Source of the DNA: an uncultured Bacteroidales bacterium
GTDB lineage: Bacteria > Bacteroidota > Bacteroidia > Bacteroidales > Bacteroidaceae
DNA length: 41,330 nucleotides
NCBI GenBank assembly: GCA_902779845.1
Contig: CACZCZ010000027.1
Location: forward strand, 1 to 41,330
Reading direction: 5' to 3'
The stretch's first letter is position 1. Each line of letters opens with the position of its first letter. Positions 29,171 through 41,322 of the stretch are shown piece after piece. Position numbers and translations under genes: made by a program. Under the pieces are notes generated by a model, which made no database searches, was not told the DNA's origin, and saw only the letters and a list, made by a program, of their open reading frames with translations.

Positions 29171-31696
29171 TCAAGAACTGCAACGCTGCAACGATGCAAC
29201 GGTGTGCGTCTTGCAATAGCGGCCGCTGACCTCGTCGAAGACGATGTGTCCGCGCTTCACCCAACTGCGCAGCGTGGCATCACCACTACCGCTGCGACCT
29301 TGTGCCTGCCGCATCTGCCGGTACTCCTCGCGCGTGAACTCATCAGCCAGCTTGTCCAACAGGTTCTGCGGCCCCGACTGGCGCTGCATCTCCACTTCCT
29401 CGCGCAATTCCTTCTCCAACTGCTTGCCGAAATACAGCATCTTGCACCATAGGTTGTACTGCTGCGACCATCGCACGAAATCGGCAATCTCACGCGACCA
29501 TTTGCAGCCGTGGGCCACATAGAGCACCATGCCCTTGAGCCATGCTATCACGTTGGCACGATAGCTCAGGATGCGGTAGGCCTCGCTGTCGTAGAGCGTG
29601 GCACTGTCGGCATTCTCGCTGCGCATCTCCATCGATAGCTTCCGTGCCTGTGGGCACTCTATCAGTCCGCTGGCCGCCTCCAGGCGGTCGATGTAGGGCT
29701 TCAGTTCCTGTGCAAACGAGTGGTCGTAGATGCCCAGGATGGGAGCCGTATCATCATCGTCGTCAGCCTTGATGATGGTGGCAATGTCCAGTCGGCTCAC
29801 GGTGCCGTCGTTGACCATCTTATAGAAGAACTTACAGGCGTTGGGCGGCGTCGTGGAGGCATTGAAGTTCCACCGCAGCGGGGCGATGCCGCTGACGCTG
29901 TCGGCTCCCACGCGCTCCTGACCGGCGAGGCTGTTGTCGAACGCCTTGCGGATGAGCAGTCCCACCTCATCGACCGTGCCCCTTGAGGTCACCTTCTTCA
30001 GCGCCTCTATCTCATCCACAAGGGTGTAGATGTAGCGCTCACCGTTGTTGTGGGCATCCACGATGCGCTGGTTGAAGACGGCATCCGTCAAGTTGTCTAT
30101 CAGCATCTGTATGCAGATGTCCGTGGGCCGCGGCTCTTTCTTCTGTTTCGCGCTCGGGTTCTTCTGCTTCCACTCGGCCTCGCGCTGACGGTTGGGGATG
30201 TCGCGTTGGCGGATATCCTCCATAATGTACTCGATGGGCTTCTTGATAGAGCCCTTGCCGATGGACTGACGACCGATGAGCACATTCATGAATGTCGCCT
30301 CGTGCTCCACATTGTCCCAGTAGCGGAAGCGGACACCGTGCAGATGTGCCCCCAGCGCAGGGAACACGGCACTGGCCACGGCGGGTTTGTAGAAGCCGGG
30401 CACGTTCTTCGTCAGCAGCTTCACCAGTGGCGGCAGTTTCTTAGGCATCGGCGGCGGCGAGGTCAGCGTACCGCCACAGGCCTTCACCGCCTGCTGCGAC
30501 TTCAGCGCCTGCAGCACCTGCTTCAGCCTGAAGGGCATCCCCCTCTTGGGCTCCTTCAAGGCGTTCGAGAGAGTTTGGATCCACTCAGACTCTCCCCCCT
30601 GCCCCTCCCTATGAGGGAGGGGAGTAATTACCTGTGACCCTTGTGAAGTGCTGTCTGCAAAACATTCTGCTCCCTCCCTGATAGGGAGGGCGGGGGGAGT
30701 GTCTTTCCAGTAGTTGGGGATGACCTGCATCATCTTCCCTAAATCATAGCCGCAGATGCTCCTCAGCGTCACTGCCAGCTCAAACGTCAGCACATTGCGG
30801 TCGCCCTCGCTCGGCTCCTTGCCGTCGTTGAACAGATCCCAGTACTTCTTGATGATCGAGGAGAAGGGGATGCCGTGGTAAGTGAGAGGATAGGAGCACT
30901 CTACAGACCCCTCAGACCCCTCTAAATCTCCCCGTGAGGGGAGACTTTCCTGTCCTCGAGACTTTTCTGCAGCCCCCTCTGCGCCAGCCTCTCCCCTCCC
31001 TTCACGGGTAGCGAAGGTGTCAACGGGTTGACTGAATGTCAAGCCGTCCTGAGTGACCGAAGCAGAACTCCTCTGCTGAGGACGGGCAAGGTCGGGGGTG
31101 GGTCTGCCGGGGTCTTTAGAGGGGTCTGTGTCCGTCTTGAAAATCTCATCATCGAGATAGATGAGGTCCTCCTCACTCGCCGTCGTTGTGAAGAACACCC
31201 TTGTGATATCCTTCGCGCCCTTGTCGTAGGCCACGCCCAAGAGATCGCTTGCCCAGCGCAGGTTCTCCTCCTGCGACATCTCCGGGCGGCGACGGAAGAC
31301 GAGGTGGTAGCCCTTCGTGGCTGAGCACTCCAGCATCAGCAGTCCCAGCTCATCCTTCTTCCCCATCACCAGCTCCGGCACCTTCTTCAACCATTCCTCC
31401 TTGCTGACAGCCATCTGCTCTTCCCCTTCAGGGGTCACAAGTGAAGGGGTCCAGTCGATGTCCATGCCCACCGTCGTGCTCATCGTCTTCGAGCCTTTCA
31501 GCGAGCCGTCCTCGTTAGGCAGACATGAGTAGTTCATCTGCACCAGCTTGTGCTTCAGCGACGTATCACCCTCGCGGATGGCAGCCACCATCTGCACTTG
31601 GTTGCCGCTGTTTCTCAGTGCCAGATACGCTGGCCTGGAGAGGACGGGGCGCATCATCTTCGCCCCATCCTTGTAGTAAATCACATGTACACTCAT
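29171..31696 (-). CDS. BT4734-like primase / DUF3987 helicase-type protein with repeat insertions
   Basis: The 841-residue protein joins a BT4734/VirE-N domain (about 1-187) to a DUF3987-type ATPase domain (about 400-790). The N-domain shows MDIDW (Asp79, Asp81) and CSATKGYHLVF (His131), a pattern like archaeo-eukaryotic primases. The ATPase has LIGRQSIGKGS (Walker A, Lys481) and TLVDEIEAL (Walker B). Such proteins are typical of Bacteroidetes mobile or satellite elements and probably start replication. Residues about 188-267 and 332-371 are low-complexity stretches encoded by GC-rich palindromic elements (TPPALPIREG and ITPLPHREGQGG), both between domains. It is the last gene of a four-gene leftward operon. 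Confidence 0.82.
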   Translation of the reverse strand: MSVHVIYYKDGAKMMRPVLSRPAYLALRNSGNQVQMVAAIREGDTSLKHKLVQMNYSCLPNEDGSLKGSKTMSTTVGMDIDWTPSLVTPEGEEQMAVSKEEWLKKVPELVMGKKDELGLLMLECSATKGYHLVFRRRPEMSQEENLRWASDLLGVAYDKGAKDITRVFFTTTASEEDLIYLDDEIFKTDTDPSKDPGRPTPDLARPQQRSSASVTQDGLTFSQPVDTFATREGRGEAGAEGAAEKSRGQESLPSRGDLEGSEGSVECSYPLTYHGIPFSSIIKKYWDLFNDGKEPSEGDRNVLTFELAVTLRSICGYDLGKMMQVIPNYWKDTPPALPIREGAECFADSTSQGSQVITPLPHREGQGGESEWIQTLSNALKEPKRGMPFRLKQVLQALKSQQAVKACGGTLTSPPPMPKKLPPLVKLLTKNVPGFYKPAVASAVFPALGAHLHGVRFRYWDNVEHEATFMNVLIGRQSIGKGSIKKPIEYIMEDIRQRDIPNRQREAEWKQKNPSAKQKKEPRPTDICIQMLIDNLTDAVFNQRIVDAHNNGERYIYTLVDEIEALKKVTSRGTVDEVGLLIRKAFDNSLAGQERVGADSVSGIAPLRWNFNASTTPPNACKFFYKMVNDGTVSRLDIATIIKADDDDDTAPILGIYDHSFAQELKPYIDRLEAASGLIECPQARKLSMEMRSENADSATLYDSEAYRILSYRANVIAWLKGMVLYVAHGCKWSREIADFVRWSQQYNLWCKMLYFGKQLEKELREEVEMQRQSGPQNLLDKLADEFTREEYRQMRQAQGRSGSGDATLRSWVKRGHIVFDEVSGRYCKTHTVASLQRCSS
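30584..30703. repeat. Palindromic elements inserted in the primase-helicase gene (copy set 1)
   Basis: Two hairpins, CCCCTCCCT-ATG-AGGGAGGGG and CCCTCCCT-GAT-AGGGAGGG, frame about 60 bp of other sequence. The set is in frame and free of stops on the coding strand. Confidence 0.75.
30896..31135. repeat. Palindromic elements inserted in the primase-helicase gene (copy set 2)
   Basis: The stretch contains CTCCCC-GTGA-GGGGAG and several GC-rich pieces (CCTCTCCCCTCCC, GGTCGGGGGTGGGTC). ACCCCTCTAAA near the left end and TTTAGAGGGGT near the right end form an outer inverted repeat. It encodes TPDLARPQQRSSAS...ATREGRGEAGAEG between the primase and ATPase regions, without breaking the frame. Confidence 0.7.
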
Positions 31697-34380: not shown

Positions 34381-34420
34381 CTAAAAATCGGCAAATATTT
34401 GGAAGTTTGCCGATTTTTAG
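34381..34420 (+). promoter_or_regulatory. Perfect 15-bp inverted repeat at the abiE promoter
   Basis: CTAAAAATCGGCAAA (34381-34395) and TTTGCCGATTTTTAG (34406-34420) are exact reverse complements around a 10-bp spacer. The right arm holds the -33 TTTG (34406-34409). A second TTTG lies at 34426-34429. AbiEi antitoxins are known to repress their own operon through inverted repeats, so this is a strong operator candidate. Confidence 0.8.
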
Positions 34421-34425
34421 TTTCC

Positions 34426-34429
34426 TTTG
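34426..34429 (+). promoter_or_regulatory. -7 region of the abiE operon promoter
   Basis: TTTCCTTTG (variant of TAnnTTTG) lies with the TTTG of the inverted repeat 16 bp upstream (20 bp start to start). The transcript would start about 20 bp before the ATG at 34452. Confidence 0.6.
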
Positions 34430-34451
34430 CACCGTCATAAACGAATTGATA

Positions 34452-35168
34452 ATGTTAGGAGTAAGCGACAGAATCCTAAACTACGCATCCAGCCTGCAAC
34501 ATTTTTCCGTAAATGATATTCAGGCTGAGGAGATTCCGGATATCGAGCGAAACACGCTCAGCTGGCATCTCAGCAATCTTTGTCAGAAGGGTCTGCTGCG
34601 CAGGATCGGGCGTGGCGTCTATACTCGACAATCTGCTCACATGTTTGTCGTGAAGGCAAATGCAAAGGCCCGTTCGCTGTATCGCTCCCTGTCCAGGCAA
34701 TATCCCCTTGCTGATTTCTGCATCTACCATGCCGATATCATCACGCCCTTGCTGCATGACATGATGCCCAACAACACGCTCTATGTTGAAACCAACCGAG
34801 ACACTGTAGAGAGCGTCTTCGACATGCTATTGCCCAAATACGAGGGCCGTATATTCCTGATGCCGACGAAGGAGATAGCGACGACATACATAGATGTCAG
34901 CAAGGAGAACATCATTGTGAAGCCGCTGGTGACAGAGGCTCCATTGACTCATGATGGCGATGTACCCGTTCCGACACTTGAGAAGTTGCTGGTTGACACA
35001 AGGGTCGATGCGGACTTCTATTATCTGCACGGCTATGAGAATCTTGAGATGTTGAGGACGGCCATCAGCCATTACGAGGTCAACAGGAATCGCCTGCTTA
35101 GGTATGCTGACCGCAGGAATGCAAAAGAGTCAATACTGAAAGATTTAGAACTCATCATAGAATCATGA
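34452..35168 (+). CDS. AbiEi-like antitoxin / transcriptional repressor
   Basis: From ATG 34452 the 238-residue protein has an N-terminal winged helix (MLGVSDRILNYASSLQHFSV...NTLSWHLSNLCQKGLLRRIGRGVYTR) and a C-terminal alpha/beta domain. This is the AbiEi type IV antitoxin layout, where the protein both represses the operon and counters the toxin. It sits directly before the AbiEii-like toxin gene, with an ATGA overlap (4 bp), which supports coupled translation. Upstream ATG at 34407 would lie inside the operator and is not used. The AbiE system acts as abortive-infection phage defence in lactococci. Confidence 0.85.
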   Translation: MLGVSDRILNYASSLQHFSVNDIQAEEIPDIERNTLSWHLSNLCQKGLLRRIGRGVYTRQSAHMFVVKANAKARSLYRSLSRQYPLADFCIYHADIITPLLHDMMPNNTLYVETNRDTVESVFDMLLPKYEGRIFLMPTKEIATTYIDVSKENIIVKPLVTEAPLTHDGDVPVPTLEKLLVDTRVDADFYYLHGYENLEMLRTAISHYEVNRNRLLRYADRRNAKESILKDLELIIES

Positions 35169-36241
35169 TACTGGAAGAGTGCTTTGAGAAAGAATGGATC
35201 GACAAGGTCTGCTCATCGCATAAGTTCAAGCATCCCGCATTGGTGGAGAAAGTCATCCGTGCCTTCTCCCTTCTGGAGATGCTGGTCAGGGAAGGTTGCC
35301 CGCTGACATTCAAGGGTGGCACCAGCCTCCTTCTCGTCCTCGGCTCCAACGCCCGCAGGCTGTCTATAGACATCGACGTGCTTTGCCCTCCCGGCACAGA
35401 CATCGAGCAATACCTCCTGCACTGCGATCGATACGGTTTTACGGATTGTATAACCCTCCGACGTGAGAACAGAAATGGCAATATCCCCAAGGGACACTAC
35501 AAGTCTTTCTTCGAAGTGGTCTATTCCGACCAGGCAGAGGACTCTGTGCTTCTTGATGTCCTTTTTGAAGATAACCACTATCATCTTATCGAGAATAAGC
35601 CATTGTCCCATTCGTTCATCCAGACCGATGGCGACGAGACCCTTATCCCCGTTCCATCCATCGCCGATCTGCTTGGCGATAAGCTCACGGCCTTTGCGCC
35701 CAATACCTGCGGCGTTCCCTATTACAAGGGCATACACAATTCCACCATCAACGTTGCCAAGCAGTTGCATGATGTAGGCCGTCTGTTTGATGCCGTAGAG
35801 GACATCGCCACAACGGCCGAGACATTCAAGTCGATAGCTGTCGTGGAGCTGTCATCCTATCGTGGCAAGGGCGACGATCTCAGTATCGTTTACGACGACA
35901 TCCGGGACACAGCACTCGCCCTGGCCACACGAGGAAAGATTGATCCCCATGAGGATTTCGAGCTGCTGGAAGAAGGTGTTGACAAGCTGAAGAGTCACAT
36001 GTTTGTTGGCAGATACACCCTTGACATGGCCACCACCGACGCCGCCAAAGCCGCCTATCTGGCAACGGTTATCCAATACGGCCTGAACAAAATCGAGAAA
36101 TACTCAGGCAAGCCCTCCGACGTGAAGGACATGACCATCAGCCCCGCCATCAGCAAGGACGTAGCAAAGATCCGACGCGGCAATCCAGAGGCATTCTACT
36201 ATTGGTGCAAGATTAGTCAGATACTGCAAGCTTTCACTTAA
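35165..36241 (+). CDS. AbiEii/AbiGii-family nucleotidyltransferase toxin
   Basis: The 358-residue protein has the nucleotidyltransferase signature FKGGTSLLLVLGSNARRLSIDIDVL (GGTS, then SIDID with the two metal-binding aspartates) and the later LLGDKLTAFAPNT. AbiEii-type toxins transfer nucleotides (known members act on tRNA or GTP-dependent targets) and stop growth until neutralised. The gene overlaps abiEi by 4 bp. Its TAA stop shares bases with the TAA stop of the convergent DpnA-like methylase gene (36238-36241), so the two defence modules are fused end to end. Confidence 0.88.
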   Translation: MILEECFEKEWIDKVCSSHKFKHPALVEKVIRAFSLLEMLVREGCPLTFKGGTSLLLVLGSNARRLSIDIDVLCPPGTDIEQYLLHCDRYGFTDCITLRRENRNGNIPKGHYKSFFEVVYSDQAEDSVLLDVLFEDNHYHLIENKPLSHSFIQTDGDETLIPVPSIADLLGDKLTAFAPNTCGVPYYKGIHNSTINVAKQLHDVGRLFDAVEDIATTAETFKSIAVVELSSYRGKGDDLSIVYDDIRDTALALATRGKIDPHEDFELLEEGVDKLKSHMFVGRYTLDMATTDAAKAAYLATVIQYGLNKIEKYSGKPSDVKDMTISPAISKDVAKIRRGNPEAFYYWCKISQILQAFT

Positions 36242-37125
36242 TCGTCTAGAAACGGCAGTGGCATGATTGCCAAAGGCTCTTGACACATGAGACAGCTGGT
36301 CTGCGTGTCTTCGGCCTTCACGATGTCGGCAATTTTTTTGCGGTAGGTGATGTAGTTCTTACCCTGTTCGAGTTCTTCACGTCGGGCCTTGCTCATAGCC
36401 GCGAACTGTTCTTCGCGCTCAATGCCAAGGAACTGCCGCCCCAACAGATTGGCGGCGATGCCTGTAGTACTGCTGCCTGCAAACGGGTCAAGAATCCAGG
36501 CGCCGGGCTCTGTGGAAGCCATGATGATGCGACTCAGCAATCCCAAGGGCTTCTGCGTAGGATGTTTGCCACACGACTTTTCCCAAGGCGCAATGGCTGG
36601 CAATCGCCACACATCGGTCATCTGCGTGTCGCCATTGATGCGCTTCATCAGCTCGTAGTTATAATAATGTGGCACTTTCGCGCTCTTGCGGGCCCAGATG
36701 ATGAATTCTGTGGAGTAGGTGAAGTAGCGGCAAGAGATATTGGGTGGCGGATTGGTCTTGGCCCACGTGATGACATTCAGAATCTTATACCCCAACTGCG
36801 TCAGGCTGTTAGCCACTGAGAAGATATTGTGATATGTTCCAGAAATCCAAATCGTACCATTATCTTTCAGCTTCTCACGACATAGCGATAGCCATTTTAG
36901 ATTGAAGGCATTGATATCTTCCTGAGACATGCTTTTGTCCCAGTCGCCCTTATCTACACATACCACCTTGCCACTCTGTACGCTGATGCCGCCGCTCGAA
37001 AGGAAATATGGCGGGTCGGCAAATATCATGTCGAACTTGAAGTTGAACTGCGGCAGCACCTCAAAGGTGTCGCCACAGACGAGATTGAAGTCATGGTTGG
37101 AGGATTTGTAGTAAGCTTGAATCAT
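36238..37125 (-). CDS. DpnA-like DNA adenine methyltransferase (beta class), second methylase of the GATC system
   Basis: The 295-residue protein has motif IV FADPPYFLSSGG before the SAM motif LDPFAGSSTTGIAA, the order of the beta class. It also has SGTYHNIFSVAN, TWAKTNPPPNISCRYFTYSTEFIIWA and GKHPTQKPLGLL. These match the DpnA/DpnIIB type, which methylates the adenine of GATC and can use single-stranded DNA, protecting incoming DNA. It is the third gene of the operon and overlaps the endonuclease gene by 4 bp. A coding-end overlap with the AbiEii toxin gene is noted there. Confidence 0.9.
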   Translation of the reverse strand: MIQAYYKSSNHDFNLVCGDTFEVLPQFNFKFDMIFADPPYFLSSGGISVQSGKVVCVDKGDWDKSMSQEDINAFNLKWLSLCREKLKDNGTIWISGTYHNIFSVANSLTQLGYKILNVITWAKTNPPPNISCRYFTYSTEFIIWARKSAKVPHYYNYELMKRINGDTQMTDVWRLPAIAPWEKSCGKHPTQKPLGLLSRIIMASTEPGAWILDPFAGSSTTGIAANLLGRQFLGIEREEQFAAMSKARREELEQGKNYITYRKKIADIVKAEDTQTSCLMCQEPLAIMPLPFLDD

Positions 37126-37940
37126 TTCAGGCTGTCAATAAATGCGCTTATATTCGTGAGATTATACACACTCTGGATGGTGTTGTAAGCCTCTTCCAAC
37201 TTGTTGCGAGCGGACTTCCAACCGATGCCGTCGGTGATCCAGACGAACTCATAACCCTTGACGGAATTGACCTTTGGCGCGAGCTCCGTGTAGGCACGCG
37301 CCACCTCATTCAGTTTCGAACCGCCGCCGCTGTAGAAATTCACCTCGATGAGGTATTTCACGGTCGGTGTCTTGATGAAGAAATCAAAACGCTTCTCGTC
37401 CGTCCCCAATACTGCCAATTCAGGAAACTCCGAGGAATAGACCTCCTGACGGAAACGGATTCCGGCATCACGGAAAAGCTTGGCTACCGTGTTCTCCATG
37501 ATATGGCCACTACGGTTCTTGCGGGCATTGGTGTCGAGGCCCGTTTCGATGCCAAATACATAATCCACAAGGTTTTTGATGCGGCGCGACTGGAAGATCT
37601 CAGCAAGTCCCGTCCCCTGAAGGAATTCCACCACCTTGGCACTGGACTTGAAATAGCTCTTCAGCAACACAACATTTCCCCGGCTGTCAACCACGGGTTT
37701 CTTACCCTCGTCTCTCACAGCAATCAAGATGCCAAGAACTTCAAAGACCTTGGCGTCGCGTAGCCAGATATCCTTGACACCCTTGGCCAAATCTTCCTTG
37801 CCAATCAGATAGTTAAGCGTGTTCAGACTCATTTCCACCTCAGCGACATTGGCTGATATCTTGTCGAAGTCGCAGAAGAAATCCAGCGTCTGATTTGTCT
37901 CTTGAAGTTGAGACATAAACAAGTTAAAGTCCTTATTCAT
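37122..37940 (-). CDS. DpnII-type restriction endonuclease (GATC)
   Basis: The 272-residue protein has the family's signature end: FDFFIKTPTVKYLIEVNFYSGGGSKLNEVARAYTELAPKV and YEFVWITDGIGW. The helical N-terminal part, with SRRIKNLVDYVFGIETGLDTNARKNRSGHIMENTV before the catalytic region, is also typical of DpnII and MboI. The enzyme should cut unmethylated GATC. It starts 8 bp inside the end of the Dam-like gene and ends 4 bp inside the start of the DpnA-like gene, so the three are translationally linked with the protective methylase made first. Confidence 0.92.
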   Translation of the reverse strand: MNKDFNLFMSQLQETNQTLDFFCDFDKISANVAEVEMSLNTLNYLIGKEDLAKGVKDIWLRDAKVFEVLGILIAVRDEGKKPVVDSRGNVVLLKSYFKSSAKVVEFLQGTGLAEIFQSRRIKNLVDYVFGIETGLDTNARKNRSGHIMENTVAKLFRDAGIRFRQEVYSSEFPELAVLGTDEKRFDFFIKTPTVKYLIEVNFYSGGGSKLNEVARAYTELAPKVNSVKGYEFVWITDGIGWKSARNKLEEAYNTIQSVYNLTNISAFIDSLK

Positions 37941-38835
37941 AGTTCTTAATCAATAGTTCTGTCAGTTTGCCACGCTTCTCTGGATTCGCATTGATGGCGC
38001 GCGAAGCATTGACGCGATGGAGATGAAAATCGGCGTAGATATCCTCGAAGAAGGTGTCCGCAGGATTCTTCGCCGAACAGTCCGCATTGCTCAGCATCCA
38101 TCGCACATTGGCGTGCCCGCCAAGCCTGGCACAGAAGTCGCGCAGGCGAATCTGTTCCGCATCGTTGAAGTCTTCCTTGGCGTAGGAATTGAAGCTCGAA
38201 GTAGCGTTCAGCGGGCGGTACGGAGGGTCGAAGTAGAAGAAAATCGGCCCATCACCAATCTCCTCGGCTGTACGCTCGAAATCACCACATAGGATCGTCA
38301 CACGGGCTCGATTCAGCAGTTCGCTGTCAGCCAGTATCGTGTTCGCATGGCAAATCGTGGGACGTAGATAGCGCCCGAATGGCACATTGAACCGCCCCTT
38401 GGCATTCACACGATACAGCCCGTTAAAACATGTGCGATTCAGGAATATCAGATACTTCGTACGGTCAACGTTATCGAGCTGCGACTCGTTGAAGATGTTT
38501 CGGATATCCAGGAAGAAGTCTTTCTTGGAAGCCTCGTCCGATTGTGCAACATAGTCCTGCTCCAGAACCCTCAGACGCTGAATCAACTCATTCGGCTGCT
38601 CCTTGATGACGCGATAGGCCGTCACCAGATGAGGGTTGATGTCGTTGATGACCGCATGTGTGATGTTTGGGAACCTACGGAGCATGTGAAAAAGCATCGC
38701 CCCACCACCTACAAACGGCTCCACATAGGTAAACGTCTGCCCTTGCAAATCTTTAGGCAGATGCTCGTCAAGTTGCGATAAAAGTTGTCCTTTGCCACCA
38801 GCCCATTTCAAAAAGGGCCTTGCTTCTGTACTCAT
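37933..38835 (-). CDS. Dam/DpnM-type DNA adenine methylase (GATC)
   Basis: From ATG 38835 the 300-residue protein has the alpha-class order: FLKWAGGKGQLL (SAM site), YVEPFVGGGAMLFHML, and DPPY in FFYFDPPYRPLNATSSFNSY. A Dam-like recognition part lies between, including YLIFLNRTCFNGLYRVN. It would methylate adenine in GATC and protect the host from the neighbouring endonuclease. The open frame runs back to 38892 through the hairpin leader, but the ATG at 38835 with MSTEARPF is the family's usual start. It is the first gene of the operon and follows an unusually long structured leader. Confidence 0.92.
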   Translation of the reverse strand: MSTEARPFLKWAGGKGQLLSQLDEHLPKDLQGQTFTYVEPFVGGGAMLFHMLRRFPNITHAVINDINPHLVTAYRVIKEQPNELIQRLRVLEQDYVAQSDEASKKDFFLDIRNIFNESQLDNVDRTKYLIFLNRTCFNGLYRVNAKGRFNVPFGRYLRPTICHANTILADSELLNRARVTILCGDFERTAEEIGDGPIFFYFDPPYRPLNATSSFNSYAKEDFNDAEQIRLRDFCARLGGHANVRWMLSNADCSAKNPADTFFEDIYADFHLHRVNASRAINANPEKRGKLTELLIKNYE

Positions 38836-39105
38836 CGTCTTTTTGTCTCTTTGGCGTGGACAAAAAGAAAGCGCACCACCTTCGTTTTCCAACTCCTAAC
38901 GAAGGCCGTCCACCACAGAAGCCCATACAGAGAGAAGGAAAGGAAGGGGTACGCCTATACAGGATAGGCGTATCCACATTCCCCGAGACTCTCTGTAACT
39001 ACTGTTAGTTTGGTGGACTGTTTTCGTTAAAAGTCTCTTCGAATTTAGATACTGCTATCTAATTTCCACGATGTCAATAGCGCTCAAGATGAGAATCAAA
39101 AGCGG
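38836..39105 (-). promoter_or_regulatory. Long structured 5' leader of the GATC restriction-modification operon
   Basis: Between the promoter (39108-39115) and the dam start there are about 270 nt. Perfect inverted repeats lie at 39045-39062 (TTAGATA, loop CTGC), 38926-38934 with 38989-38997 (TACAGAGAG/CTCTCTGTA), nested 38946-38949 with 38981-38984 (GGGG/CCCC), nested 38950-38958 with 38964-38972 (TACGCCTAT/ATAGGCGTA), 38879-38886 with 38898-38905 (CCTTCGTT/AACGAAGG), and 38839-38847 with 38859-38867 (CTTTTTGTC/GACAAAAAG). The last ends four bases before the start codon. It could be a regulatory RNA leader or a mobile repeat. No protein of more than 60 residues with family likeness is seen here. 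Confidence 0.65.
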
Positions 39106-39815: not shown

Positions 39816-39896
39816 TGCTCCGGACTTTCCGGATATTCTGGAGTTTCCGGGCTTTCCGGACTATCCGGGCTCTCCGGCATTTCCGGTGATTCCCGC
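39816..39896. repeat. Nonanucleotide tandem repeat encoding a Gly-X-Y tail
   Basis: Nine or so degenerate 9-bp units of the form TTTCCGGRC run from 39816 into the last codons of the four-helix-bundle gene. On the minus strand each gives a Gly-X-Y triplet (GNAGEPG, stop, SGKPGNSRISGKSG). The in-frame TAG at 39861-39863 cuts the tail. Confidence 0.85.
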
Positions 39897-40616
39897 CTTC
39901 GCCAACATCTGCTTCAGGCGCTCATTCTCCTGGCGCAGAGCTTCTATCTCTGCGGCTTGCCGCGCAATCGTCTGGCGTTGCGTCTCGCGCTGACCCAGAC
40001 GCGCGGCCGTCATGCGCTCACGAATGCCACCTTCGGTGGTAAACTCGCGGTCTTTTCGCTCTATATATTTCGCCATTGCCTTATCCACCTGATGACACAG
40101 GCAGATGGCCATATTGGCCAGCTCCTCATCTGTCATTCGGGCCGTCAGGGGTAGGTAGTCATCCCAATGTGTGTGATCTTGGCAGAAACGGTGCAGACGG
40201 TCAAAGCGTTCGTTCTTGCCGAACCACTCCTTCATGCCTTTACGCTTCAGGTAATCCTGATAGTCCTCCAGCAACTCCTGGTTGCTGCCTCGTGCGATGC
40301 CCAGCAGCTTCAGCTCCGTCTCCGTGGACGTCTGTCCGTCTGTGCTCCCCTCAGCGATATTCTGTTTCGTGCTGCGAGCAGCCTGAACCATCTGATCTAC
40401 AGTGCGGTCGCCGTAATGCGGCAGATAGTGCTGACAAAACACCTGTGTCAGCTGGTATAGCACATCACTACGCTGATAGAAACGCAGCTCCGTATAGACC
40501 ACCGGCTTGCGCATCACGCTGGCCGTGCCGTCCTCGTAGTGGCGGATGTGTGGTTGTTTGGGCTGAGAGGAGTCCTTTCCGTTATGATATTGGTCTGAGG
40601 CCATAATTATATGCAA
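39861..40616 (-). CDS. Four-helix-bundle suffix domain protein
   Basis: The 251-residue protein has an S23-like four-helix bundle (about 38-125, RFYQRSDVLYQLTQVFCQHYL...STKQNIAEGSTDGQTSTETELKLLGIARGSNQELLEDYQDYLKRKG). A further helical 'suffix' region and a coiled coil (about 200-240, IARQAAEIEALRQENERLKQML) follow. This two-part layout occurs in Bacteroidetes proteins of unknown function. The C-terminus runs into Gly-X-Y triplet repeats and stops at a TAG; beyond it the frame stays open for about 23 codons. A promoter (40681-40688) precedes it with a leader of about 62 nt. No reverse transcriptase or template repeat is nearby, so it is not a DGR accessory gene. Confidence 0.78.
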   Translation of the reverse strand: MHIIMASDQYHNGKDSSQPKQPHIRHYEDGTASVMRKPVVYTELRFYQRSDVLYQLTQVFCQHYLPHYGDRTVDQMVQAARSTKQNIAEGSTDGQTSTETELKLLGIARGSNQELLEDYQDYLKRKGMKEWFGKNERFDRLHRFCQDHTHWDDYLPLTARMTDEELANMAICLCHQVDKAMAKYIERKDREFTTEGGIRERMTAARLGQRETQRQTIARQAAEIEALRQENERLKQMLAKAGITGNAGEPG

Positions 40617-40726: not shown

Positions 40727-40755
40727 AGTGTTGCTAACAGGAAAAAACGGGGAGA

Positions 40756-40918
40756 GCGTTGCACCGTTGCACCGTTGCAGTCCATGAGAAGGGATTGCAA
40801 GGGGTGAAAAATGGTTCTACTTTATATTATATAATAATATTATATAATATAAAGTAGGGTGAAATTTTGACCTACCCCTACTCTGTGTTTTCAACTGCAA
40901 CGCTGCAACGCGCAACGC
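40756..40918. repeat. Symmetric element: 41-bp perfect palindrome flanked by inverted GTTGCA arrays
   Basis: The centre (40817-40857) is a perfect palindrome with 20-bp arms around one base (left arm CTACTTTATATTATATAATA). On the left, GTTGCACC units form 40756-40780. On the right, CTGCAACG units form 40895-40918, the inverted counterpart. Both arrays lie about 69 bp from the centre. No T-run or ORF is associated. It may be a recombination or replication site, a cruciform, or a mobile repeat. Confidence 0.85.
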
Positions 40919-40987
40919 ATCATGGGACGCTATGAAAATTTTGTAAAAATAATTCGAGAAAAATTTGGGGTATGTCAATATTTTTCG

Positions 40988-40995
40988 TACCTTTG
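40988..40995 (+). promoter_or_regulatory. Rightward promoter at the window end
   Basis: TACCTTTG has TTTG at 40964-40967 (spacing 20 bp), a near-ideal match. It would drive a gene lying mostly beyond the window. Confidence 0.75.
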
Positions 40996-40997
40996 CA

Positions 40998-41322
40998 ACG
41001 TCAAAGGGAAGAAAAAAGAAGACCAAGGTCTTCGAGGCGTAAGAGCAAGGTCTTACGGCCATAAGAGCAAGGGCTTCGGATTGAAAGACAAAAGACCAAA
41101 GACCAAAGACCAAAGACAAAATATAAGATACAAGATACAAGATACAAGATATAAAATATAAGATATAATACGCATCCGGATGTAAAAAACTTTGGCCAGT
41201 TTGAGTTCTCCACGCGAGGAGTTTAGAGAGGGCCCACAAACACAAAACAAACACACGACAAATTCCAGGAAGTGCATTTAGCACACGGTCCCGAGGGGCC
41301 GCCATCTGGGTCTTCCACAACA
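40998..41322 (+). other. Long untranslated leader with hairpins and heptamer arrays
   Basis: The first part holds GAAGACC-AA-GGTCTTC (41018-41033) and CGTAAGA-GCAAGG-TCTTACG (41038-41057). Then come AAAGACC heptamers (about 41090-41117) and ACAAGAT/ATAAGAT/ATAAAAT heptamers (41119-41170). The final 150 nt contain short hairpins such as CTCC-ACGCGA-GGAG. An ATG at 41323 in the context ACAACAATGAAG may start the next gene, but only eight bases remain. I see no complete gene here. Confidence 0.6.

Follow-up and report, generated by a model that had tools for sequence, protein, structure and literature searches.

The window, by which we mean the whole stretch of 41,330 nucleotides analysed here, is contig C27 of the genome of an uncultured Bacteroidales bacterium (2.92 Mb in 47 contigs, 86% complete). 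Close to its end lies a symmetric element of 163 bp in which an AT-rich palindrome is enclosed by inverted GTTGCAcc/CTGCAACg arrays (Table 1). The palindrome consists of 20-bp arms around a single base, 40837; the outer edges of both arrays each lie 81 bp from that base, and the array-to-array inversion is 94% complementary over 17 nt and over 16 nt. We found that the longest palindromic arm reached 10 in 2000 dinucleotide shuffles of the 163-bp element, 11 in the same number of shuffles of its 51-bp AT-rich core, and 9 in 40 shuffles of 11.3 kb. Folded as single-stranded DNA, the element has an energy of –42.2 kcal/mol; 200 shuffles averaged –15.5 (sd 2.88), which puts the element at z –9.27. 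The preliminary description had reported the perfect palindrome and the inverted arrays symmetric about its centre, which we confirm, and had judged a dyad at two scales to be non-random; this judgement stands, since shuffles fall short of it and the arrangement recurs in other genomes.

Table 1. Features of the repeat unit and its flank in the window.
Feature	Position	Strand	Basis or remark
Degenerate match (3 mismatches) to TCAGGAAAAGACA, end motif of an IS3-like element	40737..40749	+	
Left (A-side) arm: tandem array of three 8-bp units, GTTGCACC/GTTGCACC/GTTGCAGT, with outer GC	40756..40781	+	pairs with right arm in DNA fold
Whole repeat unit in common with the C3 copy	40756..41250	+	86% identity
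A-side interior of core, partly conserved in family	40782..40816	+	alignments
AT-rich 41-bp perfect palindrome, the hairpin tip	40817..40857	.	sequence copy-specific, palindromic in nearly all
B-side interior with ATTTTGACC (family consensus TTTTTGACTTT...TGTTTT)	40858..40893	+	alignments
Right (B-side) arm: inverted array CTGCAACG CTGCAACG CGCAACGC	40894..40918	+	sequence, DNA fold
Promoter-like region ending in Bacteroidetes-type –7 box TACCTTTG (40988–40995)	40940..40995	+	directed away from core
Leader of three imperfect 22-bp repeats	41019..41084	+	common to C3 and C12 copies; alone at two other genome places

The TACCTTTG box is one that we take to be of the Bacteroidetes –7 type, going by the consensus TAnnTTTG; no gene is visible downstream of it, the contig ending at 41330. 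The 22-bp leader repeats (AAGAGCAAGGTCTTACGG type) are found away from the element at G000:C4:151860-151924 and G000:C22:33087-33145. On the other side, 2–6 kb from the element, the window holds a restriction-modification set of the DpnII type (36238–38892, comprising the DpnII endonuclease and two methylases), which is adjoined by an AbiEi/AbiEii-type pair (34407–36241). The match of the protein encoded at 39861–40616 to the 23S rRNA intervening-sequence protein family falls narrowly short of the Pfam cut-off, and its gene has repeated TTCCGG-type motifs in the 3' end. Solo half arrays of GTTGCAG occur near a GC-rich GCGCCTCGC...GCGAGGCG hairpin at window positions 29179–29200 and at locus L219:295-308, and in L219 the half array is preceded by a small ORF (MKESTKKTLKKVAEIVITIITALLTTLGAHAAGIVQ, translated by eye) that resembles a 'smalltalk' protein.

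In the source genome, we found three strong copies, namely the window copy and two further full copies on contigs C3 and C12 (94–95% identity); there is also a fragment on C2 and a weak relative with different arms on C4. The palindromic tip is different in each of the three full copies, yet palindromic in all, and in the C12 tip a T:A pair has become C:G on both sides. Homology between the window and the C3 copy runs from 40756 to about 41250, through the TACCTTTG box and the leader of small repeats, so that the common sequence continues past 40918. The motif TCAGGAAAAGACA is better kept at the other two full copies than in the window, being exact next to C3 and having 2 mismatches next to C12. 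The C3 copy has a permease (Asp-Al_Ex) on one side and, on the other, a gene that looks nrdG-like by eye but has no Pfam hit; the C12 copy is flanked by a protein that by eye is secreted (no Pfam hit) and by a gene that by eye is GH31-like; an ORF near the C12 copy that looks RAYT-like by eye has no Pfam hit. The element had been tied to the edge of an island, a tie that does not hold, as we noticed no island content in the 10 kb around the C3 and C12 copies, and a site specific to the island is ruled out by copies elsewhere in the genome.

The dyad pattern GTTGCANYGTTGCAN{93,123}TGCAACRNTGCAAC is present in 19 of 139 genomes of the genus as compared to 1 of 139 for the reversed control. With a covariance model built from an alignment of 32 copies, matches at E ≤ 0.001 were found in 64 of the 139 genus genomes and in 78 of 399 genomes of the family, representing 14 of its 30 genera (the source genome is included in all these counts). 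The usual copy number is about 1–5 per genome, as strong copies score on both strands, and in relatives the strong copies number about five at most and have mostly ordinary genes around them; these numbers are lower bounds because the model search scored only 23 or 8 candidates per genome. Copies below 28 bits were excluded from the counts, as were L058, L054, L324 and L123 (and, in some counts, L109). We noticed, with no formal count, that in many fetched copies a contig end is no more than a few hundred bases away, and draft genomes may under-report the element for this reason. A pattern scan of a named genome collection returned 19 stretches, all in Prevotella, Prevotellaceae, Bacteroidaceae, Bacteroidales or Bacteroidetes assemblies, several of them from horse faeces or ruminants, judged by assembly titles. 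There were zero matches to window DNA in plasmid and phage collections and zero matches to one longer exact pattern in viral contigs, where a 14-base pattern gave at least 120 stretches and was not used. The element is not among the families described in Rfam at gathering score.

Aligned copies follow a common plan: tandem units form the outer stem, the interior is asymmetric and conserved, and the palindromic tip is AT-rich and varies in length (median arm length 14, range 6–27, n = 70 copies). In well-conserved members, the interior reads CAGTTCTCGAAAGG..ATTTCC..ACCC..AAAATACTTCTATAT on the A side and ATAGAGTT.ATTTTTGACTTT......CTGTTTTGGAACTG on the B side. While the interior is conserved, the arm unit varies by copy (GTTG-, GTTA-, GCTA-, GTGA-, GGGA- or GTCT-CAGT): among 105 copies there are 49 GTTG, 30 GTTA, 14 GCTA, 5 GTGA, 2 GGGA and 1 GTCT units, and 4 that the parser misread. 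An automatic parse found the identical unit on both arms in 99 of the 105; the six exceptions are in part errors of the parser, as in L117, which has GTTGCAG on both arms by eye. A single genome, G084, has four copies with four different units.

The two arms change jointly. Within the 32 copies of the model set, 53 cells are changed on both sides, as compared to 12.9 in shuffles, and 4 on one side. A second alignment, A2, of 76 further rows holds 14 two-sided pairs and 141 two-sided cells, whereas shuffles hold 7.9 and 32.3; 97.5% of its 1829 cells are paired, 8 are one-sided and 45 unpaired, and the two-sided cells drop to 5–28 when the partner is shifted by 1–3 columns. Four A2 rows (L048, L070, L116, L121) are model copies cut or oriented otherwise, and the 72 rows that remain outside the model set after their removal have 130 two-sided, 8 one-sided and 38 unpaired cells of 1730, with 41 two-sided, 0 one-sided and 0 unpaired cells at the three positions that vary in the inner unit. 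These numbers lean towards pairing, since every test row was retrieved by the model or its profile, although unit types such as GTTA, GCTA and GTGA are absent from the model set. The joint change can be followed in one pair of copies whose flanks align on both sides, G098:C18 and G084:C101, where three left and two right units differ together (GTTGCAG to GCTACAG) and the outermost right unit is unchanged.

The core is found in both directions. Read towards the promoter, the core is A-to-B in 19 of the 48 copies with a decided side and B-to-A in the other 29; a few of these sides lack a clear box and were decided by the IS motif alone. In four comparisons of related copies, the promoter flanks align in one direction and the cores on opposite strands: G084:C101 with G084:C67 (88 bp of flank at 90%), with G098:C21 (101 bp at 89%) and with L175 (108 bp at 78%), and G098:C18 with G098:C21 (74 bp at 96%). 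The AT tip alone matches either way, as seen in two of the four comparisons, and the opposite-strand match also takes in the asymmetric interior. Both orientations of a core were observed between related copies only. The earlier suggestion of a recombination site is supported in part by a core inverted relative to a similar flank in related copies; a recombinase is not indicated.

We found 0 of 105 copies inside an ORF of more than 150 aa. The flanking gene pairs (n = 78) are divergent in 24 cases, tandem in 32 and convergent in 22; in these 22 of 78, where both neighbours point inward, a promoter has no visible gene to serve. Outward TAnnTTTG boxes peak 50–100 nt off the element, with 42 on 99 A sides and 20 on 100 B sides, as compared to 6 and 2 inward boxes at that distance. 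A promoter box within 45–125 nt on either side is absent in 19 of 72 genus rows and in 14 of 36 wider-family rows (two of the 36 being halves of one copy). Many genus copies have an extended promoter type, AAAAAAGTTTG..ATTCGNGAACCGCAATG....TGTYGTATCTTTGCA, whose strict pattern occurs four times in 8 genomes, three of these beside a core. Copies of the same genome have units of about 0.3–0.65 kb in common (445 and 496 bp in the source genome, 475 in G084, 323–326 in G015, 416 in G103 and about 630 in two pieces in G099), and two loci of G105 have only a 99-bp IS end in common.

The neighbours are mostly of different families, with 114 Pfam families among the 150 nearest proteins. For this comparison we used a random 150 of 182 nearest proteins and 110 of 142 distant ones, the 32 distant proteins left out being those of the window, including one methylase (36241–37125). 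Methyltransferase genes account for 7 of the 150 nearest proteins (five C5, two D12) as compared to one C5 match among the 110 distant, an enrichment near the core that is suggestive only. DNA methyltransferase genes were also seen near the core, several directly adjoining it, at L344, L331, L315, L328, L180, L317, L063, L115 and L325.

A second kind of neighbour is an IS3-like element. The sequence GTCAACCNNNNTCAGGAAAAGACA is present in 22 of the 139 genus genomes (control, 0), and in genome G012 (locus L279) a complete IS3-like element (rve, E 8e-22; HTH_Tnp_1 only at E 0.008) has a near-identical end, with a hairpin of GGTCATTT arms 20 nt beyond it. We rejected TCAGGAAAAGACA as a part of the repeat: genome G038 has seven copies of the motif, each followed by a different sequence, which in one case (C10) includes a hairpin with repeat arms. 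Because the G038 sequences behind the motif differ and the G012 IS3-like element ends almost identically, TCAGGAAAAGACA is read as an IS end beside the core. When as many as 3 mismatches are allowed, the motif is found opposite the promoter side in 17 of the 18 genus copies that could be decided, but in only 1 of 4 such copies of the wider family, so this frame is not general. The IS3-like element that adjoins some copies has ends other than those of the element, and relatives of its transposase at 1e-30 occur in 16 of 139 genomes, the source genome not among them.

Behind 54 distinct IS3-like ends with at least 150 nt of following sequence, we found an inverted repeat of score ≥9 in 31 and none in 23. 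By our own count, 21 of the 31 have a palindrome with arms of at least 8 bp in a loop of less than 200 nt; seven of the 21 have GTTGCAG- or GTTACAG-type arms, and the rest have other repeats, in one case a single long arm. Thus, hairpins of the same build exist beyond the reach of the model. The arm repeats seen in such hairpins near IS3-like ends include GATTACA, GTACCACC, GACTTTGTGACAT and GGAACAG, among others, and the different-armed hairpins lie at L208, L209, L214, L216, L217, L237, L243, L253 and L274. At G012 L226 and L256–L261, IS3-like ends are followed by short repeated units (GGACAT-like, GTGACAAAT-like) for which the script found no second arm; AATATTTTGTG is present in several of them.

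Taken together, we consider it somewhat more probable than a coin toss that the element is a dispersed, MITE-like, non-coding DNA hairpin repeat of Prevotella-type bacteria, in which the arms are kept identical and the interior flips, probably by template switching during replication. A strand would fold into a hairpin or cruciform; a switch of the replication template from arm to arm would copy one arm onto the other, giving joint changes with few one-sided intermediates; now and then the same process would flip the interior, and slippage would add or remove units. With less certainty, the non-autonomous unit may spread by transposition or duplication, and the hairpin may modulate the adjoining promoter. 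According to published accounts, template switching between inverted-repeat arms homogenises the arms and inverts the spacer (PMC8604942) and gives multi-base compensatory changes in one event (PMC8794818). Such correction predicts joint arm change together with spacer inversion (PMC8604942, PMC8794818), and because both are seen here we prefer it to the co-evolution of operators. Several observations count against this reading. The spacer inversions described in PMC8604942 changed 2 to 5 bases, and the interior of the element, at about 110 bp, is far larger; mismatched states also occur, as in the 38 unpaired cells of 1730; and the copies with no promoter box nearby, like the inward-pointing gene pairs, weigh on the same side. 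Those papers treat a mutation process at scattered short repeats or RNA genes, unlike the dispersed family with a long interior described here (PMC8604942, PMC8794818). Conservation of the interior goes beyond what a mutation process explains and may reflect a bound protein; it implies selection or recent spread. The element may have MITE-like mobility; by eye, we noticed no empty site or target duplication in the flanks, and we recognised no autonomous element with the same ends in the fetched loci. A farther-reaching version, which is possible if doubtful, is a promoter-linked hairpin that rewrites itself, its structure selected and its arm sequence free, with template switching rewriting the arms and flipping the interior as a recombinase-free means of diversifying and switching upstream regions family-wide.

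Tandem units in inverted orientation resemble iterons or operators, and together with the conserved interior they could be operator or recombination sites of a family of DNA-binding proteins, the unit following the specificity of the protein. A HU-HIG protein, encoded near some copies, would be a candidate. A HU-HIG-like ORF lies within 1.5 kb of 13 of 106 copies, in 13 of 13 cases on the A side and pointing outward (the search profile was seeded with four of the 13, and a Pfam check identified two seeds as HU-HIG), whereas, over all nearest genes, the outward and inward counts are 50 and 39 for the A side and 46 and 48 for the B side. HU-HIG makes up 4 of the 150 nearest proteins and does not appear in the list of 25 families for the distant set, where single matches are shown only in part, and two copies in G099 continue, by eye, into a truncated HU-HIG-like start. 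We nonetheless regard this explanation as rather unlikely: 93 of the 106 copies have no HU-HIG-like ORF within 1.5 kb or up to the contig end, one genome has four units in four copies, and the unrelated arm repeats of the same-build hairpins are very free for one protein family. In a classical MITE, the arms would be terminal inverted repeats of a lost or distant transposon whose transposase moved them. The inverted ends, the lack of coding capacity, the several similar intergenic copies per genome, the units common to unrelated loci and the IS3-like end that often abuts the core in the genus all suit this model, which is still unlikely given that the arms, the would-be transposase sites, vary among copies of one genome, that homology extends well beyond them, that no target duplication was noticed, and that at 1e-30 the source genome contains no match to the IS3-like transposase.

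A strong conserved helix pattern is also what a structured RNA, or the 5' region of one, would show. However, among 70 copies, the outer arms have 8 G:T, 18 A:C and 16 other mismatches in 1190 cells and the tips have 3 G:T and 9 others in 1049, and this rarity of G:T pairs points to DNA rather than RNA. An RNA read off the A-to-B strand gains no support from these mismatches; the number of A:C would, if anything, weakly fit a transcript of the other strand. Since, in addition, the boxes near the core are mostly directed away from it, the core occurs in both orientations relative to the promoter, and Rfam gave no match on the element at gathering score (three matches at a loose threshold, best E 0.059, were taken as chance), we hold a structured RNA to be highly improbable. 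An invertible switch driven by a recombinase and controlling the neighbouring promoter would account for the two core directions and the inversion between related units, and of 105 copies, 32 do have a TAnnTTTG in the interior on one strand and 14 on the other. The window interior has no TAnnTTTG on either strand, and the arms offer no fixed sequence to a recombinase, which makes such a switch very unlikely. The preliminary description had suggested, as one of two options, a replication site, which the place at the island edge would fit; for an origin tied to the island, the iteron-like arrays around an AT-rich dyad and the nearby restriction-modification set and AbiE-type pair might speak. 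The same element at two more loci of the genome and the multiple copies in relatives, with mostly ordinary and varied neighbours and no match in the plasmid and phage collections, contradict this; an iteron origin, one per replicon and beside a rep gene, does not agree with such copy numbers and neighbours. A replication origin is therefore unlikely, and that the element is either an origin or the integration boundary of an island is scarcely credible.

Returning to the hairpin repeat that we favour, several known systems resemble it in part. Integron attC sites keep their structure while the arm sequence varies, have a variable tip, and follow the consensus RYYYAAC...GTTRRRY. The element is similar in its structure kept despite arm variation and in its variable tip; its ends, GTTNCAG...CTGNAAC, are in the reverse of the attC order, and we rejected this identity. 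The BrickBuilt MITE of Porphyromonas gingivalis is likewise an intergenic Bacteroidales element with inverted ends, tandem repeats and promoter activity; it is reportedly a direct 23-nt minisatellite with small inverted ends, confined to one species and present in 19 copies in one strain (PMC4596501), whereas the present element has short units in inverted arrays that vary by copy and surround a palindrome, and it occurs in 14 genera with few copies per genome. REP/BIME sequences with RAYT transposases are extragenic palindromic repeats too; they are reported to be 20–40 bp long, many tagged GTAG or CGTC, and usually present in more than 100 copies (PMC2817692, PMC3733652). The present element, at about 150 bp, with few copies (three strong ones in the source genome) and no GTAG or CGTC end tag seen, is not of this kind. 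The invertible promoters of Bacteroidales, as described in PMC8748976 and other papers, share inverted repeats near promoters and a segment in both orientations; unlike them, the element has no constant internal promoter or fixed recombinase site, and its arms are copy-variable. No description of the element appeared in the literature searched, at the level of titles and the starts of abstracts, nor did a literature search find the four array sequences.

The family is real and widespread, and it is of a known general kind, the intergenic inverted-repeat elements, with an unusual mode of evolution. Joint arm change in a DNA hairpin, extending through repeated units with few one-sided intermediates, provides a natural series on how template switching shapes genomes, and it is a warning that covariation by itself is no proof of RNA. 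If the hairpin acts on the adjoining promoter, it would be an unrecognised, fast-changing regulatory module for genes of Prevotella-type gut bacteria.
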